Made by a program: the position numbers and the translations under genes. From a virus: a stretch of DNA of 37,171 nt. Shown one piece after another: positions 4,442 to 10,550 of this stretch (position 1 is its first letter; each line of letters begins with the position of its first letter). The DNA is taken from positions 1 to 37,171 of IMG/VR virus record IMGVR_UViG_3300043775_000392; one strand, given 5' to 3'. The notes beneath the pieces were generated by a model. It was given only the letters and a program-made list of their open reading frames with translations. It did no database searches and had not been told where the DNA came from.

Positions 4442-4912
4442 TTAAGCATACCTAATATTGGTGTTGTTTTTCCTATGTCCAGATAGTCTATTTGCTAATG
4501 TTTGTGGCTTCATATTTATTGCATTTGCAGCTTCCTTAACTGAATCATAAAATATACCATAAACAATGTCAACAACCTTAGTTCTTCTTTTTGGACCAGG
4601 TATTTGTAAGCCAGTCTTATAAGCGTGAATTAAATTTTGGCTATGAGTTACCCATTCTAAATTTGATATACTAAAATCCTTTTTGTTGCCATTTATATGA
4701 TTTACTTCTTTTAAATTCAAAGGATTATCTATATAAGCCTTTGCAACAATTGTATGTACTCTTCTGGTAACAACTTTGCCATTTACATAAAAATTTACTT
4801 TAGGGTAACCTTTGTCACAAATAGAAACTGATAATGTTTTATTTGTTTTTGTGTTTACAATAACTCCGTTTTCATAAACAACATAATTTTTAAATTCTTC
4901 TACTATTTTCAT
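4442..4912 (-). CDS. Second HNH homing endonuclease with NUMOD-like modules
   Basis: The core VHTIVAKAYIDNP (His53) and VNHINGNKKDFSISNLEW (Asn71-His72) match the other HNH protein of this window. The ends also correspond: the N-terminal KIVEEFKNYVVYENGVI and the C-terminal FYDSVKEAANAINMKPQTLA (NUMOD1-like helix-turn-helix). The start at 4912 (MKIVEEF) was chosen to match its paralogue; an in-frame ATG at 4936 would overlap the upstream stop. It lies between two early genes and in their direction, so it probably rides on the operon transcript. The two proteins are clearly related but diverged. Confidence 0.88.
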   Translation of the reverse strand: MKIVEEFKNYVVYENGVIVNTKTNKTLSVSICDKGYPKVNFYVNGKVVTRRVHTIVAKAYIDNPLNLKEVNHINGNKKDFSISNLEWVTHSQNLIHAYKTGLQIPGPKRRTKVVDIVYGIFYDSVKEAANAINMKPQTLANRLSGHRKNNTNIRYA

Positions 4913-4926
4913 ATTTTTAATTTTTA

Positions 4927-5304
4927 TCATTCCCAACGGATAAACTCTGTCATATGCATCTTCACATATCGTACTTTATCCTTGTATTTTAGTTTACTAA
5001 TCTTAAAGTATCTACGAGCTTTTTGACGTAGTAAATCTGCTCTCATAAAGTATATCCTATGCCTAATATCTAAGTTGATTGCAAAAAACTCTACTCTCAT
5101 ATCTGCTATACCTGATGGTTTACCTTCTCTTTCATACTCCAACCATATGTAACCTCTCTGTAAGGCTTTTAGGTCTGTGATGACCATTATCTTAGTATTC
5201 TTAGCAAATAGCCTTAGTGCGTTATATGTACCATCCTCATATTTTGCTAGGTCTATTTCGAACTTTCTTTTGTTTCGGTAGTTTCCTGGATTCGGTTTCT
5301 CCAT
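4927..5304 (-). CDS. Hypothetical early protein (125 aa)
   Basis: A soluble, basic protein with many aromatic residues. The N-terminus (NPGNYRNKRKFEIDLAKYED) is polar, and the middle contains GYIWLEYEREGKPSGIADMR followed by a positively charged helix near LLRQKARRY. No catalytic motif is certain. Charge and position beside the replicative helicase suggest a nucleic-acid-associated role, but this is inference. Its start lies inside the preceding small ORF (68-nt overlap), so one of the two boundaries may be wrong. Confidence 0.65.
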   Translation of the reverse strand: MEKPNPGNYRNKRKFEIDLAKYEDGTYNALRLFAKNTKIMVITDLKALQRGYIWLEYEREGKPSGIADMRVEFFAINLDIRHRIYFMRADLLRQKARRYFKISKLKYKDKVRYVKMHMTEFIRWE

Positions 5305-7470: not shown

Positions 7471-7478
7471 CAAAGTTA
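7471..7478 (-). promoter_or_regulatory. TAACTTTG promoter box for the primosome genes
   Basis: Minus-strand TAACTTTG fits TAnnTTTG, and a TTG lies 20 nt upstream, matching the -33 spacing of Bacteroidetes promoters. The expected start is near 7464, giving a leader of about 85 nt that contains the nested hairpin. Confidence 0.5.
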
Positions 7479-8252
7479 ATTCAATTCGTCAAACTTCTCA
7501 ATTGCCTTAAATATCTGGTGTGCTACTTGAGGAACTACAGCATTTCCAGCTGCTTTTATTGTTTCTCTTCTAATACTTGGAAAGGTTTTAGTGTCCAATC
7601 CGCAGGGTACCCCATTATCTCGCAATAAAACATAGGGTTGTTTTGGCCAATTATCCCAGTGATTTCCCTGATCTTGCCTGGTACACTTTCTATTTTCATG
7701 AAGTATGGCTCTCCCCTCAGTTTCTTTAGTTCTTGTGCTTGTGGTCCTTGTGTGTCTCTCGCTGTTGGAGTAGGCCAAAAAGAAAACTCTTTGCCTTTGA
7801 TGGGGTGCACCGACACCTGCAGCTGGAATAAGAAACGATTGGACTTCATATCCTTCCCTTTCCAAATCATCGTACACCTCGTTGAATACCATCCCTCCAT
7901 TCCAGTTAACAAGTCCACGAACATTCTCGCCAACGATCCATGTGGGTTTGACTTCTTTAATGCACCTAAGCATTTCAGGAAAGAGGTGTCTTTCATCGTC
8001 TTTCCCAAGTCGTTTTCCTGCACTTGAATATGGTTGGCAAGGGAATCCTCCTGTGAGTATGTCAATTGATCCTCTGTGAATAGTGAAGTCTGTTTTAGTA
8101 ATGTCATGATAAGAAATTGAGTTTGGGAAATGATGTTTTAATACTTGTTGTCCAAATGGATTCCATTCACAATGGAATATGTTATTCCATCCCATCCATT
8201 CGGCTGCTAAATCAAAGCCTCCAATGCCACTAAATAATGATCCATGATTCAT
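7476..8252 (-). CDS. DNA (cytosine-5)-methyltransferase
   Basis: The catalytic motifs are in order: motif I LFSGIGGFDLA (6-16, AdoMet binding), motif IV GGFPCQPYSSAG (68-79, catalytic Cys72), motif VI ENVRG (109-113), motif VIII QRQRVFF (152-158) and motif X AAGNAVVPQVA (234-244). At 258 aa it is short. Only about 75 residues separate motif VIII from X, so the target-recognition domain is minimal and the target site cannot be inferred. It probably protects phage DNA from host restriction. No partner restriction gene was seen. The gene looks richer in G and C than its neighbours, suggesting separate acquisition, and a long second frame overlaps it. Confidence 0.93.
   Translation of the reverse strand: MNHGSLFSGIGGFDLAAEWMGWNNIFHCEWNPFGQQVLKHHFPNSISYHDITKTDFTIHRGSIDILTGGFPCQPYSSAGKRLGKDDERHLFPEMLRCIKEVKPTWIVGENVRGLVNWNGGMVFNEVYDDLEREGYEVQSFLIPAAGVGAPHQRQRVFFLAYSNSERHTRTTSTRTKETEGRAILHENRKCTRQDQGNHWDNWPKQPYVLLRDNGVPCGLDTKTFPSIRRETIKAAGNAVVPQVAHQIFKAIEKFDELN
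7556..8107 (-). CDS. 183-aa open frame nested in the methyltransferase gene
   Basis: On the same strand as the methyltransferase but in another frame, an ATG at 8107 opens 183 codons without a stop. The product is not random-looking. It has a KCLGALKKSNPHGSLARMF segment, then LLTGMEGWYSTRCTMIWKGK (67-86), FWPTPTARD (110-118) and NPMFYCEIMGYPADWT (157-172). The latter two resemble signatures in phage DNA-methylase-type proteins (general form W-P-T-P-T-A-R-D ... N-P-x-F-x-x-x-x-M-G-x-P-x-x-W-T). Either this is a genuine dual-coded protein, or conserved methylase motif VIII and the C-terminus are being read in a shifted frame. No independent promoter is evident. Confidence 0.35.
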   Translation of the reverse strand: MTLLKQTSLFTEDQLTYSQEDSLANHIQVQENDLGKTMKDTSFLKCLGALKKSNPHGSLARMFVDLLTGMEGWYSTRCTMIWKGKDMKSNRFLFQLQVSVHPIKGKEFSFWPTPTARDTQGPQAQELKKLRGEPYFMKIESVPGKIREITGIIGQNNPMFYCEIMGYPADWTLKPFQVLEEKQ

Positions 8253-10169: not shown

Positions 10170-10550
10170 TTAACGTAATGCATAAATTGCTTCTGGTAAT
10201 CTTCCTAAAGTTTTTAGGATTGACTCATATTTCTCAAAATAGAATGGGATGTAATTAATGTCTCTATGGAAATTATTTACTGCGTGTAATACTGTTGTTC
10301 TATCTCTGTGAAAATATGGTGCTATTTGTGATGCTCTTTGTCTATATGTTGTATGCAAAATATAGAATGCCATATTTCTAGCCATTACAAGCTCAAAATT
10401 TCTTCTTCTGCATATCATCTTACTAACAGGCAATCCAAATTCATTTGCCACAATTTCAATTACTTGCTTATATATTTCAGTATCTAAGTCAAGTCTCTTA
10501 TGTGCCAATAATGTTCCTCTAGGAACTCTCTTAACTTTCTGTATACTCAT
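10170..10550 (-). CDS. DnaA domain IV-like DNA-binding protein
   Basis: Residues about 25-100 resemble the C-terminal DNA-binding domain of bacterial DnaA. A helical region (YKQVIEIVANEFGLPVSKMI) and an arginine-rich turn (CRRRNFELVMARNMAFYI) are followed by the DnaA signature, here RQRASQIAPYF then HRDRTTVLHA (81-90). The AAA+ ATPase domain of DnaA is absent, so this is not a complete initiator. It could bind DnaA-box-like sites at a phage origin, recruit or block the host initiator, or act as a transcription regulator. It is encoded in the early block with the helicase. No perfect DnaA box was spotted by eye in the 13.1-13.7 kb intergenic region. Confidence 0.8.
   Translation of the reverse strand: MSIQKVKRVPRGTLLAHKRLDLDTEIYKQVIEIVANEFGLPVSKMICRRRNFELVMARNMAFYILHTTYRQRASQIAPYFHRDRTTVLHAVNNFHRDINYIPFYFEKYESILKTLGRLPEAIYALR

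Follow-up and report, generated by a model that had tools for sequence, protein, structure and literature searches.

A conserved +1-frame gene nested in a phage C5-cytosine methyltransferase gene, probably encoding the target-recognition and motif-IX part of the enzyme

The window analyzed here is the complete IMG/VR virus record IMGVR_UViG_3300043775_000392, a stretch of 37,171 nucleotides. Its minus strand carries a gene for a C5-cytosine DNA methyltransferase, here called alpha, which exceeds the PF00145 cut-off and has both the PCQ and the ENV motif. The nearby genes are of phage type and include those for a DnaB helicase, a replication initiation protein, an HNH endonuclease, a terminase and a portal protein, while no restriction enzyme was recognized among the window neighbors searched. 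The HNH endonuclease gene (4442-4936, minus strand; phrog_59, PF13392) belongs to the same gene block. At 10170-10550 on the minus strand, in the phage replication region, lies a gene for a small protein that has the C-terminal helix-turn-helix domain of DnaA (PF08299).

Translation of the window revealed a second open reading frame, beta, that lies entirely within alpha in the +1 frame relative to it. Beta starts with ATG and has 183 codons, or 193 codons when counted from stop to stop. The features of the locus are as follows.

7476-8252, minus strand: alpha, C5-cytosine DNA methyltransferase with motifs I-VIII and X, 258 aa (PF00145, E 7.9e-51; phrog_363, E 2.6e-72)
7556-8107, minus strand: beta, nested +1-frame ORF of 183 aa, proposed TRD/motif-IX subunit (phrog_1008, shuffles, selection)
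7778-8107, minus strand: beta N-terminal domain, residues 1-110, over alpha motifs IV-VIII, containing the FLFQL stretch (alignments A1 and A2)
7646-7777, minus strand: beta LPTP-type module, residues 111-154, beginning WPTPTARD, family M7, proposed target-recognition cassette (module analysis, frame-specific rates in relatives)
7592-7645, minus strand: beta motif-IX-like segment QNNPMFYCEIMGYPADWT, residues 155-172 (alignment A2; the same segment precedes motif X in actinophage methylases)
8037-8039, minus strand: codon of the alpha catalytic Cys72 (PCQ, motif IV), within the overlap (translation)
7539-7547, minus strand: core of alpha motif X (GNA), beyond the overlap (translation)
8108-8252, minus strand: alpha-only 5' part (motif I region), an internal control of the selection tests (4-fold differences 47%)
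7476-7555, minus strand: alpha-only 3' part (motif X), an internal control (4-fold differences 45%)

A sequence-only reading of the window had drawn attention to a stop-free second frame of 183 codons in the methyltransferase gene, and beta occupies exactly that position. The two motifs singled out in that reading, FWPTPTARD and NPMFYCEIMGYPADWT, are both present in the translation. Their supposed likeness to proteins associated with phage DNA methylases is borne out by a match of beta to phrog_1008, labeled DNA methyltransferase (E 1.5e-19 over residues 12-126), and beta gave no match in Pfam, NCBIfam or PADLOC. The overlap had been described as covering motif VIII and the C-terminus of alpha. 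The overlap is wider than this: it starts shortly ahead of motif IV and ends shortly ahead of motif X, and motif X of alpha (AGNAVVPQ) follows past the stop codon of beta.

The openness of the second frame was compared with that in 2000 synonymous-codon shuffles of alpha in which the protein and the codon usage were kept. The longest +1 frame in these shuffles averaged 80 codons and never exceeded 180, whereas the window has 193; the +2 frame of alpha was unremarkable (p about 0.3). In nearly all relatives the openness of the +1 frame is likewise beyond that of synonymous shuffles. Taken alone, it was non-significant for Rhodobacter, Rhodoplanes and DVV SI2, and the betas of the first two are assigned by profile match. 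With a beta profile built from loci L001, L006 and L181, the window beta scored 76.7 bits, whereas 500 alpha-synonymous shuffles scored 14.2 +/- 8.5 bits with a maximum of 41.8. Over all cross-scored profiles the real frames reached 70-98 bits and the shuffle maxima 42-59 bits. The shuffled alphas averaged 14-24 bits with beta profiles, which means that part of the beta similarity is a shadow of alpha conservation. In a control set of 198 Bacteroidota genomes, C5-methylases were matched in 116 and beta in 2, the latter count being a lower bound because the phrog_1008 profile is remote from the betas of Bacteroidota.

Searches with beta yielded 23 viral loci, then at least 80 viral loci, plus 80 genomic loci. 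When beta was queried against six-frame translations, 181 of the 193 loci among the matches listed had beta fully nested in the +1 frame of an alpha. The other 12, where beta is partly nested, comprise loci at contig ends, loci with a broken alpha and the split arrangement described below, and a standalone beta gene was found at none of these 193 loci. The homologues that were checked for stops in the second frame had none interrupting it. A profile made from an alignment of 102 betas (A2) matched nested methylases of Bacillota, Gammaproteobacteria and Alphaproteobacteria phages in their +1 frame, with E values of 1e-8 to 1e-72. N15 gp58, K1ind1, Pseudomonas 5399, Vibrio Baybae and Rhodobacter RcMcDreamy are among them. 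With this profile, no significant match was obtained in frames 0 and 2 of the nested methylase genes. The wider profile reach of beta, again in the +1 frame, covers methylases of Bacteroidota, Bacillota and Pseudomonadota phages. Across the 102 betas, M165, G166 and P168 of the motif-IX-like segment are invariant.

DNA resembling N15 gp58 occurs as prophage methylases in 63 of 5426 E. coli genomes. In three E. coli prophage regions (L204, L205 and L206) the profile identified a +1-frame beta with E values of 1e-14 to 1e-17, where RefSeq annotates only alpha as 'DNA cytosine methyltransferase'; no restriction enzyme is annotated next to the methylase in the three regions read. Some relatives have a disrupted alpha. 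Loci L022 and L023 (GGGTTCCCGTAATGACCTTGC) and L067 (GGGTTCCCATGATGGTCATGT) carry a 9-nt insertion directly 5' of the catalytic PCQ, with stops in alpha and an open beta; since it occurs in two differing sequences, the insertion is perhaps not an error. Five loci in Bacteroides genomes (L186, L188, L191, L192 and L195) have TGA codons in alpha, some at conserved Trp positions (SR*RQAS, DP*N), with motif X after the TGA conserved and beta intact. These loci may represent a broken alpha, read-through or another arrangement.

To follow selection along the overlap, substitutions between related pairs were classed by their effect in each frame and normalized by the available sites. The pairs were independent and were aligned by the alpha protein, which if anything favors alpha. 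All ratios that follow are approximate because doubly synonymous changes were few (48-153). In the parts of alpha outside the overlap, the rate of substitutions that are silent in alpha and alter the +1 frame was 0.98 (0.78-1.28) relative to that of doubly synonymous ones, which, as expected, indicates no constraint. Over motifs IV-VIII, the ratio in pairs of relatives was 0.39 (0.32-0.47) for the +1 frame and 0.13 for alpha, and over the modules together with motif IX it was 0.27 (0.19-0.39) for beta and 0.54 for alpha. For the modules alone, 94 pairs gave 0.16 (0.10-0.24) for beta and 1.17 (0.81-1.83) for alpha. These 94 pairs were picked by nucleotide similarity only, as grouping by beta protein similarity would favor beta. 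The pairs aligned by the alpha protein had been passed through a local-identity filter, without which unrelated modules become aligned together and blur the result. The synonymous sites of alpha are constrained in the overlap: of its 4-fold sites, 47% and 45% differed in the two parts outside and 27% and 10% inside. From the rates per segment it follows that the constrained protein switches along the gene, being alpha over the catalytic part and beta over the C-terminal half, which holds the motifs pointed out in the sequence-only reading. Judged from these rates, the read-through of the C-terminal module region by alpha is near neutral in the relatives.

The sequence-only reading had offered coincidence between conserved codons, dual coding and an ancient frameshift relation as explanations for the second frame. 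Frame-specific purifying selection was found, as dual coding entails. At the sequence level beta is a genuine frame that is conserved and evolves under selection, and dual coding can be regarded as established with near certainty. The third explanation is supported as well, in that the module and motif-IX segment of beta is found in frame 0 of a single-chain methylase and as a separate ORF in two split ones.

The single-chain case is gene 76 of mycobacteriophage Rita (L032), in which motifs I-VIII are followed by LPTP modules, NPRLAPAFSEWMMGWPAGW and motif X (GNGVVPQQ); the modules and the MMGWP segment thus lie between motifs VIII and X. In canonical C5-methylases this is the location of the TRD and motif IX. 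LoneWolf gp85/gp84 and Idergollasper gp6/gp5 are split forms in which an ORF with motifs I-VIII is followed by a second ORF, the two sharing an open +1 overlap of approximately 200 nt; the second ORFs (gp84 and gp5) contain the modules, a motif-IX-like segment and motif X. The family phrog_1008 covers the window beta, Rita residues 196-388, LoneWolf gp84 and Idergollasper gp5, and hhalign of beta against the C-terminal halves of the actinophage proteins gave a probability of 98% with an E value of 1.7e-13. On this profile evidence, the C-terminal half of beta is homologous to the part of the single-chain and split enzymes that lies between motifs VIII and X. The Rita gene scores in both frames, its +1 frame as the beta N-terminal domain plus LPTP motifs (9e-14) and its frame 0 over the modules and motif IX (5e-11), which points directly to a change of frame in this lineage. 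The Rita chain is possibly a fusion that arose by frameshift.

Beta carries an MGYPADWT segment and alpha carries motif X (GNAVVPQ). Neither beta nor the actinophage C-terminal half matched a solved C5-methylase significantly; a sequence search with beta and LoneWolf gp84 against solved structures returned no methylase, and Rita matched solved methylases over motifs I-VIII only. AlphaFold models of beta alone were poor (pLDDT 39.5 and 56.8), and no informative fold match to them came from Foldseek or VIA-align. A C5-methylase was absent from the structure-search listing, which given the poor models is uninformative either way. The TRD and motif-IX assignment is for these reasons derived from position, homology to single-chain enzymes and selection, and for motif IX in particular from likeness to the motif, the order of the segments and family bridging.

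The betas of the relatives differ in their modules. With boundaries set by the LPTP pattern, 175 betas contained 346 LPTP-started segments, 1 to 5 per beta and with a median length of 41 aa, while 4 of the 175 had no recognized segment. Grouping of the segments gave 52 families with several members and 66 singletons. The module arrays are different in 85 locus pairs whose N-terminal domain DNA is at least 90% identical; L016 and L017, for instance, have identical N-terminal domains and a different middle module. Such differences recall the way recognition domains are exchanged in multispecific phage methylases. The LPTP modules of the relatives are probably TRD cassettes. We narrowly favor the further view that these betas would be arrays of exchangeable target-recognition cassettes written in the frame of another gene, in which swaps of about 41 aa change or widen specificity, and which alpha reads as a neutral linker that merely has to be open. 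Multispecificity is not proposed for the window beta since it has a single module.

Taking these observations together, we consider that the enzyme is most probably a C5-methyltransferase made of two polypeptides, of the M.EcoHK31I type, with beta as its nested TRD/motif-IX subunit. Alpha would supply SAM binding and catalysis (motifs I-VIII) as well as motif X, and beta would supply the recognition part, consisting of the overprinted N-terminal domain, one LPTP-type module as the probable TRD, and motif IX. Both polypeptides would assemble into one active heterodimer that marks phage DNA, probably protecting it against host restriction. Translation of beta would begin in the +1 frame at a separate ATG within alpha. 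This ATG is located 142-148 nt downstream of the alpha ATG in 109 of 154 loci, and in Paenibacillus phages it is preceded by GAGGTG or GGAGGTG, which resemble a Shine-Dalgarno sequence; no obvious sequence of this kind is present upstream of the beta ATG in the window and its Bacteroidota relatives. The conserved spacing and the Paenibacillus sequences make independent initiation at the internal ATG likely. As to its history, a canonical single-chain gene probably lost its TRD-IX-X part to the +1 frame, giving the split state that persists in LoneWolf and Idergollasper, after which a second shift between motifs IX and X would have returned motif X to alpha.

Other explanations of the second frame were weighed against this one. 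If conserved alpha codons merely created an open +1 frame and a spurious similarity, beta would not be made at all, and the alpha shadow does explain some of the similarity (the 14-24 bits of shuffled alphas). The scores of the real frames exceed the shuffle maxima, however, the +1 constraint is confined to the overlap, C5-methylases without beta are common, and within the modules neutral-like evolution is seen in alpha. Shuffling, profile scoring, frame-specific selection and the prevalence in Bacteroidota together rule out coincidence for practical purposes, and we consider it extremely improbable. Beta could also be a genuine product of overprinting that has nothing to do with methylation, such as a regulator or an anti-defense factor, next to an alpha that is a complete methylase. 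The uninformative structure search of beta leaves room for such a role, but beta shares its family with portions of the single-chain and split enzymes, has a motif-IX-like segment that is not seen in alpha, and was never found without alpha at the 193 loci among the matches listed, which makes an unrelated role very unlikely.

Two further alternatives keep the enzyme but divide it differently. Programmed frameshifting out of alpha would produce one chain with motifs I-VIII, TRD and IX and no separate beta. Rita is in keeping with this: its one chain holds the modules and motifs IX and X in frame 0, and its +1 frame still scores as the beta N-terminal domain. The chain resulting from such a shift would nevertheless be devoid of motif X, selection on the +1 frame spans motifs IV-VIII of alpha, which precede any point where a shift would be useful, and both the conserved internal ATG and the Shine-Dalgarno-like sequence in Paenibacillus phages argue for separate initiation; we rate frameshifting as highly doubtful. 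Alternatively the TRD may reside in alpha and beta provide motif IX only, which is the division stated for EcoHK31I (PMC3404938). Against this, the module region evolves in the alphas of the relatives as if neutral and is strongly constrained in their betas, and homologous modules occupy the TRD position in single-chain methylases. A TRD in alpha is accordingly unlikely, and the division in which beta carries both TRD and motif IX is the one we retain.

Nested ORFs of this kind have been annotated in some phages, namely Lily (g63, 'g62 internal gene'), K1ind1 (gp33), fTaEco03 (TE3_033) and Tadhana; those of Lily, K1ind1 and fTaEco03 are labeled hypothetical or methyltransferase, with no role stated. 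Only alpha is annotated in Lc-Nu, N15 and the E. coli RefSeq regions, and beta is annotated without a full alpha in a Porphyromonas phage and in C739. The second protein is thus frequently omitted in the annotated genomes examined. The deposited annotation of loci L003 (KT997847.1) and L004 (BK068099.1) is beta, with alpha missed or fragmented. No account of nested or overprinted phage C5-methylases was found in the open literature searched, which is weak evidence of novelty, and a search for the name 'Mte8-like' gave no informative lead. What is apparently new is the spread of the arrangement over phage groups and the occurrence in relatives of betas with 1-5 exchangeable LPTP modules of about 41 aa. 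The single gene resembles a known type; its spread, the hand-over of constraint along the overlap and the exchangeable cassettes in relatives look like the new aspects.

Few cases are documented in bacteria and phages of long dual coding on one strand in which selection can be demonstrated for both frames. Here it recurs in several groups of phages, and along the overlap the functional load passes from alpha to beta. Because gene callers tend to keep one frame, the probable specificity subunit is often missing from annotation, and a methylation target predicted from alpha alone would then mislead. Since split, single-chain and nested forms coexist, the steps by which part of a gene moves into another frame can be studied directly. 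If the modules are recognition cassettes, they form a natural library for changing methylation specificity.

Among known systems M.EcoHK31I (specificity YGGCCR) is the closest in layout. Its small polypeptide of 176 aa is reportedly encoded within the large gene in another frame, a description credited to Lee, Kam and Shaw in 1995. Nesting of the small ORF in another frame of the large gene is presumably shared with the window. M.EcoHK31I consists of two polypeptides, the larger with motifs I-VIII and X and a predicted TRD and the smaller with motif IX only (PMC3404938). Compared by description rather than by sequence, the window likewise has a large chain with motifs I-VIII and X, and the motif-IX-like segment of its small chain would correspond to the motif IX of EcoHK31I; the TRD is on beta in our reading and on the large chain in the prediction for EcoHK31I (PMC3404938). 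M.EcoHK31I is also part of a restriction-modification system, unlike the window, where the neighbors searched show no restriction enzyme. In M.AquI, motifs I-VIII are on one chain and IX-X on the other (PMC3404938). As proposed for the nested system, the recognition part is on a separate polypeptide, and LoneWolf gp85/gp84 and Idergollasper gp6/gp5 look like AquI. The AquI small subunit has both IX and X, however, whereas in the window motif X is in alpha and beta is fully nested. An AquI-type layout was rejected for the window since beta ends before motif X, in contrast to the second ORF of LoneWolf and Idergollasper, which has IX and X. The label of phrog_1008 is silent on nested subunits, and the last part of this family (motif X) is absent from the window beta.

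Multispecific phage C5-methyltransferases of the SPR and phi3T type are single chains with several short tandem recognition domains. Work on such enzymes by Behrens (1987) is cited in PMC4081073. The relatives with several modules would resemble them in having several short tandem recognition domains, and would differ in that the proposed modules are on beta, in another frame, rather than in a single chain.
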